A stretch of DNA of 64,000 nt, from assembly GCA_030657355.1 (NCBI GenBank), contig CP131057.1:1-64000 (forward strand), given 5' to 3'. Position numbers and translations under genes: made by a program. Below, piece after piece: positions 49,216 to 64,000 of this stretch. Within the stretch, counting starts at the first letter, position 1. Every line of letters begins with the position of its first letter. The notes beneath the pieces are model-generated. The model saw only the letters and a program-made list of their open reading frames with translations. It was not told the DNA's origin and searched no databases. This DNA is from Radicibacter daui (GTDB lineage: Bacteria > Pseudomonadota > Alphaproteobacteria > Radicibacterales > Radicibacteraceae).

Positions 49216-51207
49216 CTATTCAGCGGCCGTGGCGGCGGCAGCCATCGCGGGCTGTTGCCGGCGCGACGGCGCACCCAGCCGGTAGCGCCGGTCGCTGAGC
49301 GAGATCAGTCCGCCCAGCACCATAAGGGCGCCGCCGCCCCACAGCCACGGCACCAGCGGATGGTGCCAGACACGGGCGGTGATGGTGTCGGGTGTTGGCC
49401 CGGCTCCGGTGGCGACATAGAGATCGCCGAAGGGCCGGGTGAGAATGGCGGCTTCGGTAGTTTCCATGCGGGCAACGGGATAGAAGCGCCGCTCCGGTTT
49501 CAGCACCGTCACCGGGCGGCCGCCACGGGTGACCTCGAAGCGGGCCGCTTCGGCGGTATAGTTCGGGCCTTCGGCGGGCTCGACGCCCTTGTAGGTGATG
49601 TCATAGCCCGCCATCCGGATGTGGCTGCCGGGCTTGACGGCGGCGATATGCTCATCGACCCACAGGCTGGTGCCCACCATGCCCAGAATGGCAATGCCGA
49701 GACCGGCATGGGCCAGCACCATGCCCCAGCTGGCCCGCGTCTGACGGCCAAGACGGCGGCGCACCTCGGCAAGGCTGGCCCGGCCGAGATGGATACGGTC
49801 GGCAAGTTCGGCAAGGCTGCCCAGCAGCACCCAGCTGCCGGCAGCGATGCCGACAAGACCCAGCAGCGGCCCGTCCCAGCGCAGCGCCAGCGTGGCGATC
49901 ACCACGAAAGTCGCTGCCAGCAGTGCGATCTTGAGCCGGCTGAAGGCAGAGCCCAGATCGCTGCGTTTCCAGCCCAGCAGCGGGCCGATGACCAGCAGGG
50001 CAAAGAGCGGCACCATCAGCGGCACGAAAGTGGCGTTGTAATAGGGGCTGCCCACCGTAACCCGCTCCCCGGCCACGACATCGAGCACCAGCGGATAGAG
50101 CGTGCCGATGAGCACTGTGGCCGCCGCCGTGGCGAGCAGCAAATTGTTGAGCACCAGCGCACCTTCACGGCTGATCGGCTGGAAGAGGCCGCCCGGTGCC
50201 AGTGCCGGCGCGCGCCAGGCGTAAAGCGCGAACGATCCGCCAACGGCAATCACCATCAGGGCGAGGATGAAGTAACCGCGCCCTGGATCGACGGCAAAGG
50301 CGTGGACGGAGGAAAGGACGCCCGAACGCACCAGAAAGGTGCCCATCAGCGACAAGCTGAAGGTAATGATGGAAAGCAGGATGGTCCAGCTTTTGAGCGC
50401 GTCACGCTTTTCCACCACGATGGCGGAATGCAAAAGCGCGGTGCCCACCAGCCAGGGCATGAAGCTGGCATTTTCAACCGGGTCCCAGAACCAGAAGCCG
50501 CCCCAGCCCAGCTCGTAATAGGCCCAGTTGGAGCCGAGCGTGATGCCGGCGGTAAGCCCGGTCCAGGCCGCCAGCGTCCACGGCCTTACCCAGCGCGCCC
50601 AGGCCGGATCGACCCGGCCTTCGATCAGCGCCGCCATGGCGAAGGAAAACACGATGGAAAAGCCGACATAGCCGAAATAGAGCAGCGGCGGATGCACCGC
50701 CAGACCCGGATCCTGCAGCAGCGGGTTGAGGTCGTGCCCGTTGACGGGGGGCGGAAACACGCGCTGGAACGGGTTGCTGGTGGCGATGATGAAGGCAAGG
50801 AAACCAAGCGTGATCATGGCCTGTACCGCCAGCGTGCGGGCGCGCAGCGCCATCGGCATGCCGCCGCCCAGCAGGGCGACGCCGGCGCCGAACAGCGTCA
50901 GCATCAGTACCCAGAGCAGCATGGAGCCTTCATGGTTGCCCCACACGCCGCTCACCTTGTAGAGCAGCGGCTTGAGCGTGTGGCTGTTTTCCACCACGTT
51001 CTCTACGGTGAAATCCGAGGTCACATGGACCCAGGTCAGGCAGCCGAAGGCAAAGGCGATCAGCGCAAACTGGACGAGTGCGCCGGGTACCGCCATGGCC
51101 ATGAGGCCCGGCAGGCGCCGGGCCGCGCCGACAAGCGGCAGGATCGATTGCACCAGTGCCACCATCAGGGCCACTATCAGCGCGAGATGTCCGAGTTCCG
51201 GTACCAA
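49216..51207 (-). CDS. ccmF: Cytochrome c haem lyase subunit CcmF
   Basis: Multi-spanning inner-membrane protein of 663 residues. The haem-handling WWD domain reads WGGFWFWDPVENASFMPWL at about residue 230, and the conserved start is PELGHLALIVALMVALVQSI. The TTG start at 51207 is chosen because a strong GGAGG site lies 5 bp before it and it matches the family start; a longer upstream ATG frame is not conserved. CcmF with CcmH and CcmI attaches haem to apocytochrome c. No ccmE or ccmH is seen beside it. Confidence 0.92.
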   Translation of the reverse strand: MVPELGHLALIVALMVALVQSILPLVGAARRLPGLMAMAVPGALVQFALIAFAFGCLTWVHVTSDFTVENVVENSHTLKPLLYKVSGVWGNHEGSMLLWVLMLTLFGAGVALLGGGMPMALRARTLAVQAMITLGFLAFIIATSNPFQRVFPPPVNGHDLNPLLQDPGLAVHPPLLYFGYVGFSIVFSFAMAALIEGRVDPAWARWVRPWTLAAWTGLTAGITLGSNWAYYELGWGGFWFWDPVENASFMPWLVGTALLHSAIVVEKRDALKSWTILLSIITFSLSLMGTFLVRSGVLSSVHAFAVDPGRGYFILALMVIAVGGSFALYAWRAPALAPGGLFQPISREGALVLNNLLLATAAATVLIGTLYPLVLDVVAGERVTVGSPYYNATFVPLMVPLFALLVIGPLLGWKRSDLGSAFSRLKIALLAATFVVIATLALRWDGPLLGLVGIAAGSWVLLGSLAELADRIHLGRASLAEVRRRLGRQTRASWGMVLAHAGLGIAILGMVGTSLWVDEHIAAVKPGSHIRMAGYDITYKGVEPAEGPNYTAEAARFEVTRGGRPVTVLKPERRFYPVARMETTEAAILTRPFGDLYVATGAGPTPDTITARVWHHPLVPWLWGGGALMVLGGLISLSDRRYRLGAPSRRQQPAMAAAATAAE

Positions 51208-51350
51208 ATGATCCTCCGCCGCTGTGCGGGCCTTCCGCCCAGCTTCTGCCTGCCACTCTACCGTGCTGCTTCTGTGGCGGCAGCAGGCAATCAGCCGCAG
51301 CCTCATCGCATGAAGGGCCGTCCCCTGTCCAACGTACTGGTTTTCCAAGC

Positions 51351-53564
51351 ATGAAGGCAGAAGAAGAAGTCGCACTGCGGGCGGCGGTCGCCGCCGCACC
51401 TGCCGAAGCCATGCCGCGCGCGGCGCTGGGCGTCTGGCTTTGTCAGGCCGGGCGGGTCGCCGAGGGCGAGGCCGTGCTTGCCGAGGCATCGCAGCGCGAT
51501 CCCGCGGAGCCCCAGATCGCGGTCAATCGCCTGCTCGCGCTGCGTCAGCTCGGCCGCCGGGAGGAAGCGGAGGCGGTTATGGTGCGGGCACTTGCCGCAA
51601 GTCCGCGCCATCCCGACCTGTTGCTGGGGGCGGGCAACCTGCTGGCCGAACTCGGCCGGCCGCTGGAGGCACTGGGCCATTTCGACCGCCTGCTGGAGAT
51701 CAGCCCGGATAATCCCGGCGGCCTTCTCAACCGGGCAAACTGCCTGCGCCTTGGCGGACGCGGCGAGGCGGCGCTTGCGGCCTATCGCCGGCTGATGGAG
51801 GTCGGCTTCAAGCTGCCGGCGGCCTATCTGGGCGAGATTGCCTGCCTTGCCGAACTGAAGGACGGGCCGGGGCTGCTGGCCGCCTTCTCGGCATCGCCGG
51901 TGCGCTTGCCTAAGGGGCTTCTCGATACGGTTGCCCATGTATTGCTGGCGAGCGACCAGATTGCTGCCTTTGAGGCGGCGCTCCGGGACTATGCCGGCTT
52001 GATGGAGGATGCGCAGGCCTGGTTCCTGCTCGGCTTCAGTGCCCTGCGCCGCAGCGATTATGCGGCTGCCGGACCCTTCCTGCAGGAGGCGCTGAAGCTC
52101 GACCGGCTGCATGTGGCCGCGGCTACGGAGCTCGCGACCCTCAGCCTCAACCAGAACAAGGTTTCGGCGGCCGCGGCCATTCTGGAGCCGCTGTTGCCGC
52201 TGGCGGCGGACAATCCCGGCCTCGCCCGGGCGGCGTGCAGCGTTGCCTTGCGGGCCCGGCGCTGGCAGCAGGCCAGCGAGATTGCCGTCGCCGCGCTGGA
52301 AAAGGCGCCGGATGCCTGGGCCTTGTGGTCGACCTACCTTATGGGGCTGCTTTATCGCGACGATCTGAGTGCGGCCGAAATTGTCGATGAACATCGGCGT
52401 TTCGGCTCCGCCATCGAGGCGGCGATAACTCCCTTGCCGGCAAGCGTGCGCCGGCGGGATTTGTCGCCCGCGCGCCGGCTCAGGGTCGGGTATGTCTCGG
52501 GGGACTTCCGTCACCATTCCGTCGCCTACTTCCTTGCCGCCGTGTTGGAAGCGCATGATCCGGCGGCTGTTGAGGTTGTTTGTTATTCAAGCAGCCTCAA
52601 GAGCGACGATATGACGGATCGCTTCCGGCAGATGGCGGGCCTGTGGCGCCAGGTCGCCGATCTTTCCGACGACGCTCTGGCCGCGCAGGTGGTGGAAGAC
52701 CAGATCGACATTTTGGTCGATCTTTCCGGTCACAGTGCGGATAACCGCCTGCCGGTCTTTGCCCGCCGCCCGGCGCCGGTCCAGCTCAGCTGGCTCGGCT
52801 ACCCGCAGACCACGGGGCTGGCGGCAATGGGCTATCGTCTTGTCGATCCGGTAACCGATCCTCCGGAGCCGGCTTTTGTGCGCGGACCCGAGGGGCTGGT
52901 GCGGCTTGAAAATGGCTTTCATGCCTTTGAACTGCTGTCCGTCGCGCCCGCTGTGGGGCCACGGGACCCGGGCCCCGTACGGTTCGGGTCCTTCAACGCG
53001 CTTTCCAAGATATCGCCAACGACGCTCGACCTCTGGGCCTCCGTGCTGCTTGCATTGCCGGACAGCCGGCTGGTGCTGAAGGCCGCCGGGCTTGACGATG
53101 CCGGACTTGCCGCAGCTCTGAGCGATAATCTGGCAGGCCGCGGCGTTGCTCCCGGCCGGATCGATTTTCTGCCCTGGGCCGGCGGGCAGGCGGAGCATCT
53201 GGCGCTTTATGCCGGCATCGATATTGCGCTCGATACCTTTCCCTACAGCGGCACAACGACGACCTGCGAGGCTGCCGCGATGGGGGTGCCGACGGTGACG
53301 CTCAAGGGCAGCAGCCATCCGGCCCGGGTTTCGGCGAGCCTGCTGTTCCGCATGGGGCTTCAGGAACTGGTGGCCGAAACGCCGCAGGATTTCACCACCA
53401 TCGCCGTTGCTCTGGCTGGCGACAAAAACAGGCTTGGCGAATTGCGCCAGAGCTTGCGTCAACGTCTGGAAGCCTCTCCTGTCGGAGATCCGGTGCGAAT
53501 GGCGCGGGCGTTGGAGGCGGCCTACCGGGCGCTGTGGCAGCGCAGTCTCGGGCGCAGCGCATGA
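51351..53564 (+). CDS. TPR protein with O-GlcNAc-transferase-like (GT41) domain, copy 2
   Basis: Protein of 737 residues, paralogue of the first copy and divergent from ccmF. TPR units occupy about 1-370. The GT41 part shows GYVSGDFRHHSVAYFLAAVL, VRFGSFNALSKISPTTLDLW and LDTFPYSGTTTTCEAAAMGV. The start at 51351 has no strong ribosome-binding site but follows the family. It ends 36 bp before fliS on the opposite strand. Its position between cytochrome and flagellar genes and its family make a flagellin-modifying role plausible. Confidence 0.87.
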   Translation: MKAEEEVALRAAVAAAPAEAMPRAALGVWLCQAGRVAEGEAVLAEASQRDPAEPQIAVNRLLALRQLGRREEAEAVMVRALAASPRHPDLLLGAGNLLAELGRPLEALGHFDRLLEISPDNPGGLLNRANCLRLGGRGEAALAAYRRLMEVGFKLPAAYLGEIACLAELKDGPGLLAAFSASPVRLPKGLLDTVAHVLLASDQIAAFEAALRDYAGLMEDAQAWFLLGFSALRRSDYAAAGPFLQEALKLDRLHVAAATELATLSLNQNKVSAAAAILEPLLPLAADNPGLARAACSVALRARRWQQASEIAVAALEKAPDAWALWSTYLMGLLYRDDLSAAEIVDEHRRFGSAIEAAITPLPASVRRRDLSPARRLRVGYVSGDFRHHSVAYFLAAVLEAHDPAAVEVVCYSSSLKSDDMTDRFRQMAGLWRQVADLSDDALAAQVVEDQIDILVDLSGHSADNRLPVFARRPAPVQLSWLGYPQTTGLAAMGYRLVDPVTDPPEPAFVRGPEGLVRLENGFHAFELLSVAPAVGPRDPGPVRFGSFNALSKISPTTLDLWASVLLALPDSRLVLKAAGLDDAGLAAALSDNLAGRGVAPGRIDFLPWAGGQAEHLALYAGIDIALDTFPYSGTTTTCEAAAMGVPTVTLKGSSHPARVSASLLFRMGLQELVAETPQDFTTIAVALAGDKNRLGELRQSLRQRLEASPVGDPVRMARALEAAYRALWQRSLGRSA

Positions 53565-53600: not shown

Positions 53601-54074
53601 TCAGGCGCTGACGGTAAAACCGCCGGCCGGCATGGTAACCGGCTGTTCGCCGGGCGCGGCGGTGCCGGACTGCTGCGGGGCAGGAGCGCCCGCATGGGGG
53701 ACGGACTGGCCGACCTGGCGCCAAGTCTGTGCCATGGTGCGCAGGCCATCGACAACCACCGAGCAGGCGTCACGATCATTGCGGACATTCACCCGCGTGA
53801 TCATGAGCGACAGGTTGGTATAATAATTGTCGAACACCTCGACCATCTGCTTTGCCTCGTCGACATCTTCGGCAAGGCATTGCTGCAGACCCTTGATGAT
53901 GAGCTGGGCCTTTTCCGTGGCCAGGAAACGCGCCTCGTAATCCTTGGCGTCCAGGGCATTCAGGGCCGTCATCATGTGACGCGCGGCCGTTTCCAGTAAC
54001 ATGGCGACCTGGTCGGCCGGGCTTGCCGCGGCGACGGAACGGTTGCGATAGGTCTGGTTTGCGTAGGCGCTCAT
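53601..54074 (-). CDS. fliS: Flagellin export chaperone FliS
   Basis: Cytoplasmic chaperone of 157 residues that caps the C-terminal helix of flagellin before export. It matches FliS: YANQTYRNRSVAAASPADQV then AMLLETAARHMMTALNALDA, and MVEVFDNYYTNLSLMITRVN. The C-terminal 35 residues are a proline- and glycine-rich tail not usual for FliS. It lies 69 bp after the fliD stop on the same strand, the normal fliD-fliS order. Confidence 0.9.
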   Translation of the reverse strand: MSAYANQTYRNRSVAAASPADQVAMLLETAARHMMTALNALDAKDYEARFLATEKAQLIIKGLQQCLAEDVDEAKQMVEVFDNYYTNLSLMITRVNVRNDRDACSVVVDGLRTMAQTWRQVGQSVPHAGAPAPQQSGTAAPGEQPVTMPAGGFTVSA

Positions 54075-54143: not shown

Positions 54144-56945
54144 TCAGCTGCTGGAGCCGGTGTTGGTATAGGCCTTCAGAGTGTTCTGGGTGTTGTTGAG
54201 TTCGGCCAGCAGGGACTGCACCTGGGTGAACTGGCTCTGCATGCGGGCCAGATAGCTGGTCAGGTTATCTTCAAGGCGGGAAATCTGATCCTCAAGCTTG
54301 GTATTCTTGGCGGTCAGATTGTCCATCTCGCTTTTCATGCTGCCGTTCGTCTGATCCATGACACTGGTCAGGTAGCCGGCGGCGATGTCCGCGATGCCAT
54401 CGGTAATCTTGAAGGTGGTCGAGACCGAAGCCTGACCGGGCCTGATGTCTCCGCCGGAATAGGCAAAGACGAAACCATCGAGATCGCCGGTGCCCCGGAT
54501 GATGCCGTTATCGACGGTGCCGTTGTAGCCGCGCACTTCCCAGTCGTTGTAGGAGCCCGGGGTGGTCGCGGCGTAATCGCTGACGGTGAAGCTGAGCTTG
54601 CCGGTGGTGGAGTCATAGCCGGAGACGGTGCCAATGATGTAGGTGCCATCTTCGTCACCATTCTTGGCAATCTCGATCTTGTCGCCCGCAGCAAAGCTTT
54701 TGCCGGCCTGGATCGTCATCTCATGTTCGGTGGTCAGGAAGTCCGAGGCCGAGAGATCGAGGCTGGTGCCCTGACGCACGACATCGACATTCGACAGCGT
54801 GCCGGTGCCGGATTTGTCGATCATCGTGTACTGAACGGTCTTGGTCGCGCTGTCATACCCCGTGACCTTGGCGGTCATGTACTGGGTTGCATCACTCTGG
54901 CTGGAAACCTTGATAACGTCTCCGACGCCATAGGCCGTGTCCGTATCGAGCACGAAGCTGCCCGAGCTGCTGGACTTGGCGGCAAACAGGTCGATCCCGA
55001 CGGTGGAGGCCGTTGAAGTCAGGGTGGAGGAGGTGGCGGTATTGCCTTCGTAATTGAGCAATACCTCCTCGCGGTCCATGTTGAGGGTCCAGTTGGTGAT
55101 CGGACCGGTTGCATCCTGATTGGATTTGCCGACCACCTTCATGGACACGGAACCGCCAACGGAATCGTCGACGGCAGTGATGGTGGCGACGAAGAAGTTA
55201 TTGGAGTCGTTGGCGTCGACCATCTGGACGGACTGGCCGACCTTGAGGCCGCCATTGACGCCCATATTCTGCACATCAATGCTGTTGATATCGAAGGTCA
55301 GCACGTTGTCGGCTTGCAGCACGTCCATCTCGATGCCGCCGGCCGGGTTCGTCACTGTCGTGCCCCGCACTTCGCCGCGGTTTCGGATGACAGCTTCGAC
55401 AGTGCCTCCCGCCAGAGAGTTCGGGATGACATCCGGACGGTCAATCGACGAAAACTCGGGATTGCTGCTGGTTGCCTGATAGGAGAAGACAGCCTTCACC
55501 TGGTCGAAATTGGTCAGCAGCGCGTTGTTGAGCTTGGTGTCGTCGATGGTCAGCTTGTTGCTGGCATCAAGCGTGATGCCGACATCGGCCAGGGTTGAGT
55601 AGCTGCCGGTGCCAAGCTCGATGCCGAGCGCGCTGCCGGTGATGGCGGAACGCAACTGCTGGCTCACGGAGCGCAGCAGGCTGTTGCCGTAGAGCAGCGC
55701 ATCTTCCGATACCGTGCCGTCACTGCCGATGGCCGACTGTGCTTTGATGAAATCCCGCAATGCGTTGTAGGAATCCACGAAGTCGGTGATGGCGGTCTTG
55801 GCAGTCGAGACGTCGTCTTCGACCGACACATTGATGGTGTCGTTCGGGGCGCTGTCGTAAATCTGGAAAGTCAGGCCGGAGATCAGATCGTCGAAGGTGT
55901 TGGTGCTGCGCACGGCGACGAGGCCGTTATATTCCACCTTGGCCGAAAGCTGCTCTTCGAACTTGCCGTCGGTGAGGCCGAGCACACTGGTCGCATTGGC
56001 ATCGGCGGTGATGTTCAGCGGGCTGTTGGAATTGGTGGAGTTGATGAGCAGCCGCACCGACCCGTCTGCCTGCGAATAGACGCTGGAAGAGACGTTGGCG
56101 ATGCCCAGGCCGTTGATATAGTCCGACAGCTCCTGAACGGTGACCACACCGTCGCCGCCGGCTGCCGCACTGAGATCGAGCGCCGTGCCGTTGATGGAGA
56201 TCGAATCCGTCGTGGAAAGGCCGGTATTGGCCGCTTTGGACGCAAAGCTCTGCGAAGTCTGCTGCAATGAGCTGAAATTCAGATCGGAGAGCACGCCCGC
56301 ATCGCCGCCGATATCGAGCACCTCGCCGGTTTCCGTGCCGCTGATGACCAGACGATAGTTGCCGTCGCTCAGCTGCAGCACCTGTGCCTTGGCGTTGGCC
56401 GCCGTCGATTTGGCATTGATGGCATTGGCGACATCGGTGAGCGACATGTTCGCGGTCAGCGCGATATTGGTGCCGTTGATGCTCAGGTTGCCGGCAGAGG
56501 TGATAACTGCAGCGGTCTTGCTGGACTGCGCCTGGGCGAGCTTCTGGTCAGCCGTTGCCGTTTGCAGCACCTTGATCTGGAACGTACCGGTCGCGGCCGC
56601 TGAAGTGGCGCTGATCCCGATAACGGCGTCCGGATTGGAGAGGGTGCCTGAGGTTGTATAGGCGGCCTTGCCCTCGAAAGCGTCGGTCACCGAGCTGAGG
56701 AGCCCGGGATTGCGCAGCAGAGTGGACGCCGCCTGAAAATTGGTGAGCAGGGTCTGGAAATCGGTGAGCGCGGACAGCTTTTTGGTGTTGGTGTCGATGA
56801 GCGTCTGCTTCTGGGTAATCGGAACCCGCTTGGCTTCCTCAAGGTTCTTGAGGATGTCCTCGACATTCACACCCAGAACCTGGGTGTTCAGCGTGGTCGT
56901 GCCGTTGGAGTTCGTCTGGATATTGCCGAAGCTGATGTCTGCCAT
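54144..56945 (-). CDS. fliD: Flagellar filament cap protein FliD, unusually long
   Basis: Filament cap of 933 residues, against the usual 450-650. The conserved N terminus reads GVNVEDILKNLEEAKRVPIT, and the C-terminal coiled coil (NLTAKNTKLEDQISRLEDNL, MQSQFTQVQSLLAELNNTQN) matches the D0 and D1 helices of FliD. Between about 555 and 810 sits an insert with three similar modules, near 565-620, 670-725 and 752-803 (pattern VGDxIxI then GTVxGYDSxTGxLxF), recalling motifs common in phage tail and receptor-binding proteins. A good AGGAG site precedes the ATG at 56945. The gene is followed by fliS. Confidence 0.9.
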   Translation of the reverse strand: MADISFGNIQTNSNGTTTLNTQVLGVNVEDILKNLEEAKRVPITQKQTLIDTNTKKLSALTDFQTLLTNFQAASTLLRNPGLLSSVTDAFEGKAAYTTSGTLSNPDAVIGISATSAAATGTFQIKVLQTATADQKLAQAQSSKTAAVITSAGNLSINGTNIALTANMSLTDVANAINAKSTAANAKAQVLQLSDGNYRLVISGTETGEVLDIGGDAGVLSDLNFSSLQQTSQSFASKAANTGLSTTDSISINGTALDLSAAAGGDGVVTVQELSDYINGLGIANVSSSVYSQADGSVRLLINSTNSNSPLNITADANATSVLGLTDGKFEEQLSAKVEYNGLVAVRSTNTFDDLISGLTFQIYDSAPNDTINVSVEDDVSTAKTAITDFVDSYNALRDFIKAQSAIGSDGTVSEDALLYGNSLLRSVSQQLRSAITGSALGIELGTGSYSTLADVGITLDASNKLTIDDTKLNNALLTNFDQVKAVFSYQATSSNPEFSSIDRPDVIPNSLAGGTVEAVIRNRGEVRGTTVTNPAGGIEMDVLQADNVLTFDINSIDVQNMGVNGGLKVGQSVQMVDANDSNNFFVATITAVDDSVGGSVSMKVVGKSNQDATGPITNWTLNMDREEVLLNYEGNTATSSTLTSTASTVGIDLFAAKSSSSGSFVLDTDTAYGVGDVIKVSSQSDATQYMTAKVTGYDSATKTVQYTMIDKSGTGTLSNVDVVRQGTSLDLSASDFLTTEHEMTIQAGKSFAAGDKIEIAKNGDEDGTYIIGTVSGYDSTTGKLSFTVSDYAATTPGSYNDWEVRGYNGTVDNGIIRGTGDLDGFVFAYSGGDIRPGQASVSTTFKITDGIADIAAGYLTSVMDQTNGSMKSEMDNLTAKNTKLEDQISRLEDNLTSYLARMQSQFTQVQSLLAELNNTQNTLKAYTNTGSSS

Positions 56946-57269: not shown

Positions 57270-59453
57270 TTAGCCGATGAGACGCAGCAGCTGCTGCGGC
57301 ATCTGGTTGGCCTGGGCCAGCATGGAAACGCCGGCCTGCATCAGGGTCTGGGACTTGGTGAAGGAGATCATTTCGGAAGCCATGTCGACATCATAGAAGG
57401 TGCCGCGGGCTGCCGAGGAGTTCTCCACCTGGGTCGAGATGTTGGCCTGGATGAACTCGAACCGGCTCTGCTGGGCGCCGATGTTGGCAAGCCCGGTGTT
57501 GACGGTGTTGAGAGCGCTGTCCAGGGCGATGCTGGCCTTGCGGGCATCATCCTTGGTGTTGATGTTCATACCGGTAAGGCCGAGGGCATCGACGGTCGCG
57601 GCGGTCATGTTGACCGTGAGATCGTCGCCCGCGATTTCAGAGACCTGGAACACGAAGTTCTGGCCGCTGCCCTTGCCGACATTGAACACCATCTGGGTCA
57701 TGTCCTTGCTCGAGTCGAAGGTGTTGCCATTCGAACCGAGGGTCAGGGACAGACCATTGGAGAACTGAACCGTCTGATTGCCATCCGAGCTGACCTTGGC
57801 CTTGAGAACGGTGACACCGTCCGTCAGCTTGAAGGTCTTGTCGTCGGCGCTGTAGGACAGGGAATAAGTGCCGGGTTCGGTGGTCGCGGACGCCTTGATG
57901 GTCTGGTTCACGCCCATTTCGAAGCCATTATAGCCATCGTTATTGGCGGAAGCGGACTGGAAGCGTGCCGGGTTAGCACCGGAGGTGGGGTCGAGACCGA
58001 GCAGGCGCTGCAGGCCGACCTGCAGTTCCGGAAGGGTGTCGAGAGAGGTGCTGGCCGTCGAGCTGAGGTTCAACGAGATGACGTTGTCAGCATCCGTGGT
58101 GCTGATGAGGTTCAGCTGGCCGTTGTTGGTGGCGGAGAAGCCCTTGGCCTGGAAGGTCTGGCTGCCGACGACGAGAGAAACGTCGAAGGCGGAGCCGTTC
58201 TTCGTGACCGTGACACCGCTCGCCACGCCGTCGATGAAGCCGGCAGTGTTGGTGGTGTTGATGGAACCCGAGAAGCCGGCCGTGGCGGTGTTGAGACCGA
58301 AGGCGGATTCGGAGTTGCCGATATTGAAGGTGGCGCCACCGAGCAGGTTCTGCAGGTTGGTCTGGAAGGAACCAGCCGTGCTGAGGGTAGAGGAAGCGGT
58401 GGAGCCATAGTTGATGGCCAGCACGTTGCCGCTGTCGCGGGTGCTGGTGAGCTTCAGCACGCCGCCGTCGGTGACGGTGACGGACGAAGCACGGAAGGTT
58501 TCACCATCGATCACGGCCTGGACGGTGTAGTCGCTGGCGGAGCCATTGACGGTGATATTAGCGGCGGCGGTGGTGCCCTGGACCACGCCACTGGAGGCGT
58601 CGAGGTTCAGGAGCGAAGTGGTGTTGAAGCCGCTGGAGGTCGTGCCGGCGCTGGAGATGCTTTCGGCATAACCGACCTGGAGGGTGGAGTTCTGCAGCAG
58701 ATTGTTGATCTGCGTTTCCATCTCGCTGTCGGTATCGATGTTGGCAACCGAGGAGCCGACATCGAAAGCGATCTTGTTGCCGGAGTTGGTGCTGCTGGTG
58801 AGCACGAGCACGCCGTTGGCCTGGACCTCGGAGGAACCGGTGAAGGTTTCGCCGTCGATGGCCAGGGTCACAACGCCGTTCGTCACATCGGCGCCAACGG
58901 TGTTGGCGGCGCCAAACACATGCTGGACATAACCCGAGGAAGCAGCGGAGTTGAGCGTGCCGGCAAAGCCGCCCGCACCGGAGTTGAGGCCGGTAGCAGA
59001 CTTGTTGTTGTTGGCATATTCAACCTGGCCCGAGCCGCCGGTGAGCAGCGAGGTGCCGTTGAAACGGGTCTGCTTGGCGGTGCTGTCGACCTGGTTCAGG
59101 AGCAGACCGAATTCCTGCTGGGCGTAGGAGACTTCGGAAGCACCGAGGGTGTCGTTGACGACCTGGGTCGCCAGCACTTTCATGCGGTCGAGCATGTCGG
59201 AGATGTTGGAGAGACCGCCAGCGGCCACCTGCAGCAGGGACGAACCCTGGGAGGCGTTACGGGAGGCTTGTCCGAGCGACGAGATCGTCGAGCGCATCTT
59301 GTTGCTGATGGAGAGCGACGCAGCGTCATCCATCGGCTTGGTGATGCGGGTGCCCGAGGACATGCGGGCGATGGACGCGGAAGAGGAATTGCTGTTGGTG
59401 TCCAGATTGCGCTTGGCAGTCAGGGCAGCCGTGTTGGTGCTGACGGAAATCAT
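57270..59453 (-). CDS. Flagellin, copy A (727 residues)
   Basis: Filament subunit of 727 residues. The conserved N-terminal helices (MISVSTNTAALTAKRNL, then AASLSISNKMRSTISSLGQA) and the C-terminal helix (YDVDMASEMISFTKSQTLMQ, ending QQLLRLIG) are typical. The middle is long, with three similar units of about 113 residues at roughly 156-270, 275-385 and 386-487, each centred on a DGETF or GSQTF motif. That makes it much larger than usual alphaproteobacterial flagellins. The start at 59453 matches the N-terminal helix. It is preceded by a promoter and hairpin leader shared with copy B. Confidence 0.95.
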   Translation of the reverse strand: MISVSTNTAALTAKRNLDTNSNSSSASIARMSSGTRITKPMDDAASLSISNKMRSTISSLGQASRNASQGSSLLQVAAGGLSNISDMLDRMKVLATQVVNDTLGASEVSYAQQEFGLLLNQVDSTAKQTRFNGTSLLTGGSGQVEYANNNKSATGLNSGAGGFAGTLNSAASSGYVQHVFGAANTVGADVTNGVVTLAIDGETFTGSSEVQANGVLVLTSSTNSGNKIAFDVGSSVANIDTDSEMETQINNLLQNSTLQVGYAESISSAGTTSSGFNTTSLLNLDASSGVVQGTTAAANITVNGSASDYTVQAVIDGETFRASSVTVTDGGVLKLTSTRDSGNVLAINYGSTASSTLSTAGSFQTNLQNLLGGATFNIGNSESAFGLNTATAGFSGSINTTNTAGFIDGVASGVTVTKNGSAFDVSLVVGSQTFQAKGFSATNNGQLNLISTTDADNVISLNLSSTASTSLDTLPELQVGLQRLLGLDPTSGANPARFQSASANNDGYNGFEMGVNQTIKASATTEPGTYSLSYSADDKTFKLTDGVTVLKAKVSSDGNQTVQFSNGLSLTLGSNGNTFDSSKDMTQMVFNVGKGSGQNFVFQVSEIAGDDLTVNMTAATVDALGLTGMNINTKDDARKASIALDSALNTVNTGLANIGAQQSRFEFIQANISTQVENSSAARGTFYDVDMASEMISFTKSQTLMQAGVSMLAQANQMPQQLLRLIG

Positions 59454-59520
59454 TTCAAATGTCCTCGCATCTTGCGATTTCCACACCTCATACCTGAGGC
59501 GGGAGCCATCTTGGCTTCCG
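59454..59520 (-). promoter_or_regulatory. Structured 5' leader of flagellin A
   Basis: Three hairpins can be drawn on the transcript. The first, at 59500-59520, pairs GGAAGCC with GGCTCCC-type bases around AAGAT. The second, at 59484-59501, is a 6-bp stem with loop AGGTAT. The third, near 59463-59477, pairs TCGCA with TGCGA and places the GAGG ribosome-binding site beside it. The same layout occurs in copy B with compensating changes. Confidence 0.7.
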
Positions 59521-59522
59521 TA

Positions 59523-59551
59523 ATATTAAGGAAATGGCGGGCAAGAGGCAA
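59523..59551 (-). promoter_or_regulatory. Candidate sigma-70-type promoter of flagellin A
   Basis: TTGCCT (59551-59546) and TAATAT (59528-59523) are separated by 17 bp on the minus strand. The predicted start of transcription falls at the base of the first leader hairpin. Confidence 0.6.
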
Positions 59552-59690
59552 GCACAATGCCGCGCAGGGCGCGCGGGGGCCAGAGCCGGGGACGTGGTCT
59601 AAACGTCTGAATTGGCTGCCGTTCTGGCAGGGTTCACAAAATGAGGAACTGGATCAAAAGGATAGGGTGTTCTGGTCGGGATACCTCTGG

Positions 59691-59727
59691 AAAAGAAAGG
59701 GCCCCGGCGTTTTGTTCGCCGGGGCCC
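59691..59727 (-). terminator. Rho-independent terminator of flagellin B
   Basis: An 11-bp perfect stem, GGGCCCCGGCG (59699-59709) with CGCCGGGGCCC (59717-59727), has a 7-nt loop. On the minus strand it is followed by TTTCTTTT. It begins 28 bp after the flagellin B stop. Confidence 0.9.
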
Positions 59728-59754
59728 TCGTTTTAGCCCTTTGCTGTTTCAGGC

Positions 59755-61938
59755 TTAGCCGATGAGACGCAGCAGCTGCTGCGGCATCTGGTTTGCCTGA
59801 GCCAGCATGGAGACGCCGGCCTGCATCAGGGTCTGGGACTTGGTGAAGGAGATCATTTCGGAAGCCATGTCGACATCATAGAAGGTGCCGCGGGCTGCCG
59901 AGGAGTTCTCCACCTGGGTCGAGATGTTGGCCTGGATGAACTCGAACCGGCTCTGCTGGGCACCGATGTTGGCAAGCCCGGTGTTGACGGTGTTGAGCGC
60001 GCTGTCCAGGGCGATGCTGGCCTTGCGGGCATCATCCTTGGTGTTGATGTTCATGCCGGTAAGGCCGAGGGCATCGACGGTCGCGGCGGTCATGTTGACG
60101 GTGAGATCGTCGCCCGCGATTTCAGAGACCTGGAACACGAAGTTCTGGCCGCTGCCTTCGCCGACATTGAACACCATCTGGGTCATGTCCTTGCTCCAGT
60201 CGAAGGTGTTGCCGCTGGACCCGAGGGTCAGTGACAGACCATTGGAGAACTGGACCGTCTGATCGCCATCCTTCTCGAGCTTCGCCTTGAGGACGGTGAC
60301 ACCGTCCGTCAGCTTGAAGGTCTTGTCGTCGGCGTCATAGGACAGGGCATAGGTGCCGGGCTGGGTGGTTGCGGACGCCTTGATGGTCTGGTTCACGCCC
60401 ATTTCGAAGCCATTATAGTCATCGTTATTGGCGGAAGCGGACTGGAAGCGTGCCGGGTTAGCACCGGAGGTGGGATCGAGACCGAGCAGGCGCTGCAGGC
60501 CGACCTGCAGTTCCGGCAGGGTGTCGAGAGAGGTGCTGGCCGTCGAGCTGAGGTTCAACGAGATGACGTTGTCAGCATCGGTGGTGCTGATGAGGTTCAG
60601 CTGGCCATTGTTGGTGGCGGAGAAGCCCTTGGCCTGGAAGGTCTGGTTGCCGACGACGAGGTTAACGTCGAAGGCGGAGCCATTCTTCGTGACCGTGACA
60701 CCGCTCGCCACGCCGTCGATGAAGCCGGCGGTGTTGGTGGTGTTAATGGAACCCGAGAAACCGGCCGTGGCGGTGTTGAGGCCGAAGGCGGTCTCGGAGT
60801 TGCCGATATTGAAGGTGCTGCCGCCCAGCAGGTTCTGCAGGTTGGTCTGGAAGGAGCCTGCGGTGCTGAGAGTAGAAGAAGCACTGGAACCATAATTGAT
60901 GGCCAGCACGTTGCCGCTGTCGCGGGTGCTGGTGAGCTTCAGCACGCCGCCGTCGGTGACGGTGACGGACGAAGCACGGAAGGTTTCACCATCGATGACA
61001 GCCTGGACGGTGTAGTCGCTGGCAGCGCCGGAAACGGTGATGTCAGCGGCGGCGGTGGTGCCCTGGACCACGCCGCTGGAGGCGTCGAGGTTCAGGAGTG
61101 AAGTGGTGTTGAAGCCGCTGGAGGTCGTGCCGGCGCCGGAGATGCTTTCGGCATAACCGACCTGAATGGTCGCGTTTTGCAGCAGATTGTTGATCTGCGT
61201 TTCCATCTCGCTGTCGGTATCGATGTTGGCAACCGAGGAGCCGACATCGAAAGCGATCTTGTTACCCGAGGCGGTGGTGCTGGTGAGCACGAGCACGCCG
61301 TTGGCCTGGACGTTGGAGGAACCGGTGAAGGTCTCGCCATCGATGGCCAGGGTAACAACACCGTCCTGGACATCGGCACCAACAGTGTTGGCGGCGCCGA
61401 ACACATGCTGGACATAGCCCGAGGAAGCGGCGGAGTTGAGCGTGCCGGCAAAACCGCCCGCACCGGAGTTGAGGCCGGAAGCGGACTTGTTGTTGTGCGA
61501 ATATTCAACCTGGCCCGAGCCGCCGGTGAGCAGCGAGGTGCCGTTGAAACGGGTCTGCTTGGCGGTGCTGTCGACCTGATCCATCAGCAGGCCGAATTCC
61601 TGCTGGGCGTAGGAGACTTCGGAAGCACCGAGGGTGTCGTTGACGACCTGGGTCGCCAGCACCTTCATGCGGTCGAGCATGTCGGAAATGTTGGAAAGGC
61701 CGCCGGCGGCCACCTGCAGCAGGGACGCGCCCTGTGAGGCGTTGCGGGCTGCCTGGCCAAGCGACGAGATCGTCGAGCGCATCTTGTTGCTGATGGAGAG
61801 CGACGCAGCGTCATCCATCGGCTTGGTGATGCGGGTGCCCGAGGACATACGGGCGATGGAGGAGGAAGAGGCGTTGCTGTTGACGTCCAGATTGCGCTTG
61901 GCAGTCAGGGCGGCAGTGTTGGTGCTAACGGAAATCAT
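59755..61938 (-). CDS. Flagellin, copy B (727 residues)
   Basis: Paralogue of copy A with the same length and only about 40 substitutions by eye, spread over residues 19-610. The last 130 residues are identical. The same three internal repeats and conserved end helices are present. It has its own promoter, leader and terminator. Tandem copies this close suggest recent duplication or gene conversion. Both could be co-assembled into one filament or used at different times. Confidence 0.95.
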   Translation of the reverse strand: MISVSTNTAALTAKRNLDVNSNASSSSIARMSSGTRITKPMDDAASLSISNKMRSTISSLGQAARNASQGASLLQVAAGGLSNISDMLDRMKVLATQVVNDTLGASEVSYAQQEFGLLMDQVDSTAKQTRFNGTSLLTGGSGQVEYSHNNKSASGLNSGAGGFAGTLNSAASSGYVQHVFGAANTVGADVQDGVVTLAIDGETFTGSSNVQANGVLVLTSTTASGNKIAFDVGSSVANIDTDSEMETQINNLLQNATIQVGYAESISGAGTTSSGFNTTSLLNLDASSGVVQGTTAAADITVSGAASDYTVQAVIDGETFRASSVTVTDGGVLKLTSTRDSGNVLAINYGSSASSTLSTAGSFQTNLQNLLGGSTFNIGNSETAFGLNTATAGFSGSINTTNTAGFIDGVASGVTVTKNGSAFDVNLVVGNQTFQAKGFSATNNGQLNLISTTDADNVISLNLSSTASTSLDTLPELQVGLQRLLGLDPTSGANPARFQSASANNDDYNGFEMGVNQTIKASATTQPGTYALSYDADDKTFKLTDGVTVLKAKLEKDGDQTVQFSNGLSLTLGSSGNTFDWSKDMTQMVFNVGEGSGQNFVFQVSEIAGDDLTVNMTAATVDALGLTGMNINTKDDARKASIALDSALNTVNTGLANIGAQQSRFEFIQANISTQVENSSAARGTFYDVDMASEMISFTKSQTLMQAGVSMLAQANQMPQQLLRLIG

Positions 61939-62000
61939 GACGGTGACCTCGCTTCTTGCGAATTACGCGTCTCGTACCTGAGACGGGAGCCATCACGGCT
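61939..62000 (-). promoter_or_regulatory. Structured 5' leader of flagellin B
   Basis: The layout matches that of copy A. A hairpin at 61988-62000 has stem AGCC/GGCT. A hairpin at 61968-61985 has a 6-bp stem with loop AGGTAC. A third, near 61949-61961, pairs TCGC with GCGA beside the GAGG site. Two changes relative to copy A in the second stem keep pairing (C-G to T-A, and G-U to G-C). Confidence 0.7.
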
Positions 62001-64000
62001 TATAGAGGCTTATATCCGGGCTCCGTGTGTTGCACAAGATTTTTAATAAAATTTGATCTAAATTTTTCCGAATTCAGAAAGGCGCTCTGTTCAAGCTTTT
62101 GGCGCAGGCCTTGACGCCAGCCGGAAAGCTGAGCCCTGTTTTCGGATAAGCGATTGCAAATGTTAACGAAAGAAGCCGCATCCTGCGCAATCAGCTGGCC
62201 AAGATCCAGATGAGAAAGGATGCTCGCCCCCACCCGTGCGGCATGCCTGTCACCGGCAAGACAGACGACGGGGACCCCCATCCACAGGGCTTCGAAGGTC
62301 GTGGTCGTCCCATTATAGGGCACGGTATCGAGGGCGATATCGATCCCGGCATAGGAAGCAAGATGCTCTGCCACGCTGCTGCGAGAGCCGAGGAAATGAA
62401 GCCGGCCGGCATCGATACCTTCGCTGGCGAAACGTGCCAGCAGCGCCGATCCCGTTCGTGGGTCGGCAAGGGCACGGGACTTCAGCACAAGACGCGAACC
62501 CGGCACGGCGCGCAGCACGGCGCTCCACAGCCGGATCGTGCGGTCCGACAGCTTGGCGATATTGTTGAAGCTGCCAAAGGTAAGGGGGGCATCCGGGCTG
62601 GCGGCGGCTTTCGGCACCGGAGCCTCCTCGGGCGGGCGATAGCATAAAAAGCCGTCCGGCAGCCGGATCAGGCTTTCCGTAGCATGGGCCTCATAGCCCG
62701 GCGGGTCGGCAATCGCATCGGTGATACGCCAGCCGATTGTGCCAAGGCCGGTCGTGTTTGGATAACCGAGCCAGGTGATCTGGGCCGGAGCGGGTTTAAG
62801 CGCAAAGATATCAAGCCGGTTGTCGGCGCTGTGGCCGGCAAGGTCGATCAGGATATCGATACCGTCGTCCCGCACGGTGCGGGCAATGACTTCAGCCGGG
62901 CGACCGACCGTGTCGCGCCAGCCATCCGCCAGTTTGCGCAGCCGGGCCGACTTGTCGTCCGGACGGGCAAGCTCGGCGTACAGAATGGCATCGAAACCGG
63001 TTTTTCCCTCAAGAAGGGGTTCCAGAAAGAAAGATACCGAATGCCAGCGCAGGTCCGGAGAGACGAACCCCAGACGCAGCCGGTCTCCCCGCCGGGAGAG
63101 GGATGCCGGAGCGGCGAGGGGCAGGGTGAAGCGCCGGCCCCAGTCTTCATGCTGGCGGCGGCTCTCTTCGGGCGGGGGGCCATCGACATAATTGCCGGTG
63201 AACAGGCGGTTGGAGGCGATGGCCGCGTTCTGTGGATCCAGCCTTTCGGCCTTCTCCAGCAGACAGAGGGCTTCCTCGGCCCGTGCACTCTCGGTCAGAC
63301 AGTTGGCAAGATTGGCCAGGGCCTCGGCATAGGCCGGGGTAATGGCGAGCGCCGCCTCAAGTTTTTCGACCGCAGCGCTGGTTTGCCCTCTCAGCTGCAG
63401 CACCCGGCCCAGATTGTTGAGCGCCACGGCATTGGCGCCGTCGCGGGCGATCGCTTTCTCAAGCAGCTGCTGTGCGGCCGGCAAGTCGCCTTGCTGGAGC
63501 AACAATGTAGCGGCGTTGACCTGGGCGGCGACATGATCGGGGGCAAGGGCAAGCAACTGGCGAAAGCAGCTCGATGCTTCTGGAAGGCGGCCCAGCCGCT
63601 TTAGCAGGTTGCCCTTGTTATTGAGGGCCTCAAGGTGCCCCGGCGCCAGTTCGATGGCACGGTCATAGCCGGCAAGCGCTGCTTCAATCTCTTCGGTCGA
63701 TGCCAGAAGATTGGCAAGATTGTAGTGGGCGCTGGCATAGGCGGGGTCAATCGTCAGGGCTTGGCCGAAGGCGTCTCTGGCCGCCGGCGCGTCGCCGGAC
63801 GCGATGAGGGCAGACCCCAGATTGTCGAGGATCACGGCGCTGGAAGGGGCGAGTTCGGCGGCCTTGCGCAACAAGGGGACGGCCTCTGCCGCTCGCCGTG
63901 TCTGGTTCAGCAGGGCACCGAGATTGTTGAGAAACCCGGGGTTCAGCGGGTCGAGCTCCAGCCCGCGTCGCAGCAGCCTCTCTTCATCGTCGCGTCGGCC
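62000..64000 (-). CDS. TPR protein with O-GlcNAc-transferase-like (GT41) domain, copy 3 (5' end outside window)
   Basis: At least 666 residues are visible and the frame stays open to the window edge, so the N terminus is missing. The visible N-terminal part is TPR units (LDPLNPGFLNNLGALLNQTR). The GT41 part has GFVSPDLRWHSVSFFLEPLL, LTFGSFNNIAKLSDRTIRLW and LDTVPYNGTTTTFEALWMGV. It lies directly upstream of flagellin B on the same strand, and the flagellin promoter starts inside its 3' end. That makes flagellin a probable acceptor, as for Caulobacter FlmG. A start seen at 63874 would truncate the TPR array and is not favoured. Confidence 0.88.
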   Translation of the reverse strand, partial: GRRDDEERLLRRGLELDPLNPGFLNNLGALLNQTRRAAEAVPLLRKAAELAPSSAVILDNLGSALIASGDAPAARDAFGQALTIDPAYASAHYNLANLLASTEEIEAALAGYDRAIELAPGHLEALNNKGNLLKRLGRLPEASSCFRQLLALAPDHVAAQVNAATLLLQQGDLPAAQQLLEKAIARDGANAVALNNLGRVLQLRGQTSAAVEKLEAALAITPAYAEALANLANCLTESARAEEALCLLEKAERLDPQNAAIASNRLFTGNYVDGPPPEESRRQHEDWGRRFTLPLAAPASLSRRGDRLRLGFVSPDLRWHSVSFFLEPLLEGKTGFDAILYAELARPDDKSARLRKLADGWRDTVGRPAEVIARTVRDDGIDILIDLAGHSADNRLDIFALKPAPAQITWLGYPNTTGLGTIGWRITDAIADPPGYEAHATESLIRLPDGFLCYRPPEEAPVPKAAASPDAPLTFGSFNNIAKLSDRTIRLWSAVLRAVPGSRLVLKSRALADPRTGSALLARFASEGIDAGRLHFLGSRSSVAEHLASYAGIDIALDTVPYNGTTTTFEALWMGVPVVCLAGDRHAARVGASILSHLDLGQLIAQDAASFVNICNRLSENRAQLSGWRQGLRQKLEQSAFLNSEKFRSNFIKNLVQHTEPGYKPL
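62009..62037 (-). promoter_or_regulatory. Candidate sigma-70-type promoter of flagellin B
   Basis: TTGTGC (62037-62032) and TATAAG (62014-62009) are 17 bp apart. The promoter lies inside the last codons of the upstream OGT-like gene. The predicted start is at the base of the first leader hairpin, as in copy A. Confidence 0.6.

Follow-up and report, generated by a model that had tools for sequence, protein, structure and literature searches.

The fliD gene of Radicibacter daui raises the question of what a long segment resembling phage tail proteins is doing within a flagellar filament cap protein. The gene lies at 54144..56945 on the reverse strand of the window, that is, the whole 64,000-nucleotide stretch of DNA that was analysed, and its product of 933 residues contains an insertion of about 260 residues. 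Here, we describe the site of this insertion, its relationship to a module of phage tails, the occurrence of the module in other proteins, and the roles that it may have at the tip of the flagellum.

The fliD gene and the insertion in D1

The reading frame of fliD is exactly delimited: an AGGAGAG ribosome-binding site stands before the ATG start at 56945, and the stop codon ends at 54144. Both family domains were found above the Pfam cut-offs: FliD_N (PF02465; 50.5 bits for a cut-off of 24.8, E 3.3e-13) at residues 25-133 (56547..56873, reverse strand) and FliD_C (PF07195; 133 bits for a cut-off of 25.4, E 1.5e-38), which is split by about 350 residues, breaking at profile position ~163 and resuming at ~154. 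The first part of FliD_C (residues 335-492; 55470..55943, reverse strand; profile positions 4-163) corresponds to the C-terminal half of D1, and the second part (residues ~841-917; 54195..54425, reverse strand; profile positions 154-235) to the C-terminal helix of D1/D0. The protein shares its N-terminal MADISFGNI with the relatives L004 and L005. The gene context also supports the FliD identity, since two flagellin genes precede fliD on the reverse strand (57270..59486, 738 aa, and 59755..61938, 727 aa, both with Flagellin_N and Flagellin_C) and the export chaperone gene fliS lies directly downstream of it (53601..54074, reverse strand; Pfam FliS, E 2e-20). Judged by its domains and gene context, the frame is a genuine FliD, predicted to form the oligomeric cap at the filament tip.

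Some other features of this neighborhood deserve a description of their own. The tandem flagellins (57270-61938) are much alike, and between Flagellin_N and Flagellin_C each has a variable region of about 500 residues with an internally repetitive look and without a Pfam match. Genes with TPR and GT41 (O-GlcNAc-transferase-like) character are found on either side of the flagellin-flagellin-fliD-fliS cluster, at 51156-53561 on the forward strand, where this character was confirmed by Pfam, and at 62000-64000 on the reverse strand, where it was judged by sequence only; the two are possible candidates for O-glycosyltransferases of flagellin or FliD. A second, ordinary fliD of 558 aa is present in the same contig (L001, G000:C2:676703-678277), free of the insert and with an unbroken FliD_C, which points to either a paralogous cap or an additional flagellar system.

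The original prediction gave the protein 933 residues, which is exact, and placed it about 300 residues above most FliD proteins. Among approximately 67 alphaproteobacterial FliD frames, ranging from 556 to 1097 aa, the median length was 689, and the nearest relatives (570-584 aa) are shorter by about 350 residues; however, as ten of the 67 frames have at least 900 residues, the protein is large but not unique. All nine of the long FliDs tested with Pfam carry Flagellin_IN, and in three of them (L152, L154 and L161) it is the D1 insert that holds the best match to it, whereas Flagellin_IN (PF07196) was not matched by Pfam in the 933-residue FliD.

The insertion was located by comparison with the nearest FliDs (L007 of genome G010, 570 aa; L004, 584 aa; L046, 580 aa), which match the protein up to residues ~516-527 and then again from ~806-819; with phmmer, the alignment to L007 breaks at residues 527/806. 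When residues 547-806 were omitted, the beta-hairpin of D1 aligned through, with GGNTYTAT-IQNGIIRAPEGSPLEGFAFGY in L007 facing (insert)-YNGT-VDNGIIRGTGDLDGFVFAY in this FliD, which argues for a single clean insertion in the hairpin loop. The insertion thus delimited (54528..55307, reverse strand; residues ~547-806) is absent from the closest FliDs, as seen in the empty-site alignment with these three and others, and both this alignment and the FliD_C break at 163/154 place it inside the helical region of D1. GC content at third codon positions is equal in the insert (0.81) and in the core (0.80), so either the insertion is of some age or its composition has since been ameliorated.

The site itself appears to be permissive, or even a hotspot for insertions, as the FliD of L005 (5471-7510) has a duplicated D1 beta-hairpin unit at the corresponding position and the FliD_C match is interrupted at this profile position in many FliDs of Alphaproteobacteria. 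Additional domains of cap proteins are known from other bacteria. In Campylobacter jejuni, the D1 helix bundle of FliD contains an inserted domain, D4 (PMC7316729), and the FliD described here similarly carries extra domain material inside D1, the position of D4 being taken from the published description and not from a residue alignment. The fold of D4 was unresolved in the 2020 map, and no phage relationship is mentioned for it in the parts of the C. jejuni reports consulted, whereas the present FliD has the three tandem phage-tail modules described below. In Helicobacter pylori, the cap protein is likewise enlarged by extra domains, D4 and D5; however, these are situated in the head and resemble D2/D3 (PMC8306008), whereas in the present FliD the extra domains lie in D1 and are similar to modules of phage tails. 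The 933-residue FliD is a case of a D4-type D1 insertion, a known kind, here made of phage-tail modules.

Three modules related to phage tail proteins

The original prediction was of a pattern repeated three times near residues 555-810, and its two example strings do occur in the insert. We delimited three modules on the reverse strand: M1 (residues 548-623; 55077..55304), which is divergent, M2 (residues 655-725; 54771..54983) and M3 (residues 735-807; 54525..54743). The repetition is real. M2 and M3 aligned to each other with a score of 70, above the shuffle maximum of 64 (0/1000), while for M1 the pairing with M2 was equaled in 15/1000 shuffles and that with M3 in 127/1000. Each module taken alone matched a profile of viral copies (M1 16.4, M2 36.7 and M3 41.8 bits; maximum of about 10 in 2000 shuffles each), and AlphaFold predicted a five-strand unit three times.

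The viral profile originated in a search with the insert as query, which gave weak matches to prophage-like tail proteins. A phage tail motif was recognized in those proteins, and a consensus query of this motif, not taken from FliD, retrieved 80 viral-contig loci from IMG/VR; it also matched isolated cyanophages, in one of which the gene is annotated as 'fiber protein'. Among the ORFs of the window, the viral-copy profile matched the FliD insert three times, with 10.0, 30.2 and 34.9 bits (total 57.4, E 4e-17), and the next best frame reached 4.4 bits. In the 5.06-Mb genome, the only matches of an alignment of 60 viral copies were M3 (E 1.4e-9), M2 (E 9e-8) and M1 (E 0.12), the last being marginal genome-wide when taken alone, though its 16 bits were attained in 0/2000 shuffles. 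The excised insert scored 72.4 bits, and the best of 5000 shuffles 9.4. Reciprocally, at E<1e-3, a profile built from M1-M3 only recovered 72 of the 84 viral ORFs that carry the module, and it picked up none of the remaining 537. These profile matches, the shuffle controls and the reciprocal search argue for homology and against chance composition; at the level of sequence, the resemblance of the FliD modules to phage tails is real homology.

Other searches were negative. Neither the whole insert nor M3 by itself gave a significant BLAST match in phages, and the insert had no BLAST match in plasmids; pairwise similarity is too low for this method, and profiles alone detected the relationship. 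Scans of the insert against Pfam, PHROGs and NCBIfam gave no significant match, the best being Pertactin with E 0.018, below the cut-off, and Pfam matched neither the module consensus nor the FliD copies. No PDB structure was significant for the module by sequence or by fold; the PDB fold search gave nothing at E<0.1, and its matches to the Chi tail-tip and the FliH-FliI barrel were set aside as not significant.

Structure prediction was carried out on an insert-only alignment, as a whole-protein alignment put viral rows on D2 and was set aside. M3 modeled with its viral relatives had five strands, with pLDDT 87 and pTM 0.76. In the model of the whole insert, the five-strand pattern occurred at residues 548-622, 661-725 and 740-807; most core regions had pLDDT of about 80-96 and the flanks were low, and the overall pTM of 0.35 means that the relative placement of M1-M3 is not fixed by the model. 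In these models, the insert does not show the ordinary FliD D2/D3 fold. Foldseek against BFVD, which contains predicted viral proteins, returned mainly phage proteins named 'Collagen triple helix repeat' and 'Tail fiber', with nine matches for M3 at E<1e-3 (probability 1.00, TM 0.69-0.76) and a best E of 1.5e-8 for the insert. This fold match is supportive but not independent of the sequence match, because the AF2 alignments contained viral rows. The likeness to phage tails, first put forward as a personal pattern match, is better supported than was claimed at the time, by reciprocal profiles, fold matches to collagen-like tail and tail-fiber proteins, and the absence of the module from the other FliDs examined.

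The FliD modules share with the tail-fiber and collagen-like tail module of Caudoviricetes (BFVD A0A6J5P004, Synechococcus phage Ssp-JY42 fiber protein) the profile, the five-strand unit, the tandem array found in some phages and the GSGT..W ending, which is diverged in FliD. They differ in being more divergent and in lying within a bacterial flagellar cap, whereas the phage copies are in tail proteins, often beside collagen repeats.

Occurrence of the module in other FliDs, tail proteins and PilY1

The module is absent from the approximately 67 other alphaproteobacterial FliDs, including the ten of at least 900 residues, where the viral profile reached at most 7.3 bits against 57 here. Among the genomes compared, the FliD with the module is present in one, the single representative of its order in this set; no identical insert was found in relatives, which were compared from class rank upward. 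The module as such was found in 14 of 385 class-level genomes and in 14 of 398 phylum-level genomes, with the source genome counted in each set. Most of the frames inspected resembled phage tail proteins, and some of them had collagen repeats or, as a neighbor, a phage gene such as DNA primase; in two genomes (G050 and G202) the context is uncertain as to phage or not. In the former, two adjoining collagen-like proteins carry the module (L227, G050:C2:1632000-1646000) on a bacterial contig that may or may not be of phage nature. From this distribution we infer a phage origin of the FliD modules; in the tree, however, they lie on long, unresolved branches, so the direction and date of the transfer are matters of inference.

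The clear exceptions to the phage-tail-like carriers were PilY1-like proteins of 1760-2067 aa in three genomes of two genera (L222:2193-7472, L223:648-6791 and L224:542-6742), whose N-terminal part includes the module once or twice. T4P_PilY1 was above the Pfam cut-off in two of the three, and a PilX_N gene adjoins the one in L222. PilY1 is the tip protein of the type IV pilus, so that, like FliD, these proteins place the module family within a bacterial motility appendage; unlike the FliD copies, the PilY1 modules sit in another host protein and form a clade of their own in the tree, and recruitment to PilY1 therefore looks independent of FliD. The module family may be present at two appendage tips. 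The broader proposal that an undescribed phage tail-fiber family was recruited independently to the tips of the flagellum and of the type IV pilus, as a ready-made contact module, is somewhat doubtful.

Possible roles at the flagellar tip

We consider it probable that this FliD is a cap protein with three modules of a phage-tail family in the D1 hairpin loop, exposed on the outside of the cap and most likely serving contact at the tip. In the mechanism that we propose, the conserved D0 and D1 would fold into an ordinary cap and promote flagellin insertion, with the modules on the cap exterior, as is D4 in what is described for C. jejuni; were the cap pentameric, like those of other species, it would display about 15 modules. 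In Pseudomonas aeruginosa FliD, D1 and the coiled-coil region are functionally important and the head domains can be swapped with motility kept (PMC8533109), and the C. jejuni D4 domains are described as distant from the cap cavity (PMC12221982). Because of this exchangeability and of the position of D4, at least as far as the latter is described, an insertion in the D1 loop should be tolerated and displayed outward. From there, the modules would make or modulate contacts between the tip of the flagellum and a surface, a glycan or another cell. Such a contact or binding role, suggested by the position and the family of the modules, is put forward tentatively. The part in adhesion or phage interaction that the original prediction considered would be reasonable at a D4-type position. 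For C. jejuni D4, heparin binding and adherence are postulates of the authors (PMC7316729, PMC12221982).

The modules could instead be phage-derived and yet purely structural, acting without a ligand as a rigid spacer or as a shield by which the cap is made wider or protected. The phage module is often beside collagen-like stalks, a spacer-like setting, and may be just structural in phages; no binding pocket, catalytic motif or ligand-binding family was identified for the module in any protein, and no member was found whose ligand is known; and C. jejuni D4 is said to possibly influence the flatness of the cap plate through steric packing (PMC12221982). However, the three divergent copies and the parallel placement in PilY1 fit contact equally well, and we regard a purely structural role as unlikely, although it is the alternative that fares best.

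An action on the phage side, with the modules as a decoy or an altered receptor for flagellum-binding phages, or a service as an O-glycosylation scaffold for GT41-type enzymes, would agree with the phage origin of the module and with the two TPR and GT41 genes that flank the cluster; but the module has no known phage receptor role and the GT41 enzymes may act on flagellin alone, which leaves this reading improbable. That the insert is an ordinary D4-type expansion of flagellar material, its phage likeness a convergence of Thr/Ser/Gly-rich beta repeats, might be argued from the large D1 insertions common at the shared profile position in alphaproteobacterial FliDs, some with Flagellin_IN in their later part, but it is scarcely credible for a protein without a Flagellin_IN match, and was rejected by the shuffle, other-FliD and reciprocal controls.

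A tip contact through the modules thus stays our preferred reading. Insertions in FliD were known earlier; this is one with a traceable phage-tail relationship, and, together with the clean empty site, this relationship makes the role of the insertion testable by deletion of a defined segment. In the open-access literature, the scope of our search, we found no earlier account of a FliD with phage tail modules. The work further defines the limits of a widespread module of phage tails for which neither Pfam, with the consensus and the FliD copies as queries, nor the PDB gave a match. With PilY1 as the second example, our findings suggest that phage tail parts are reusable on appendage tips; if this is true, bacteria would be equipping the tips of their appendages with components of phage tails.
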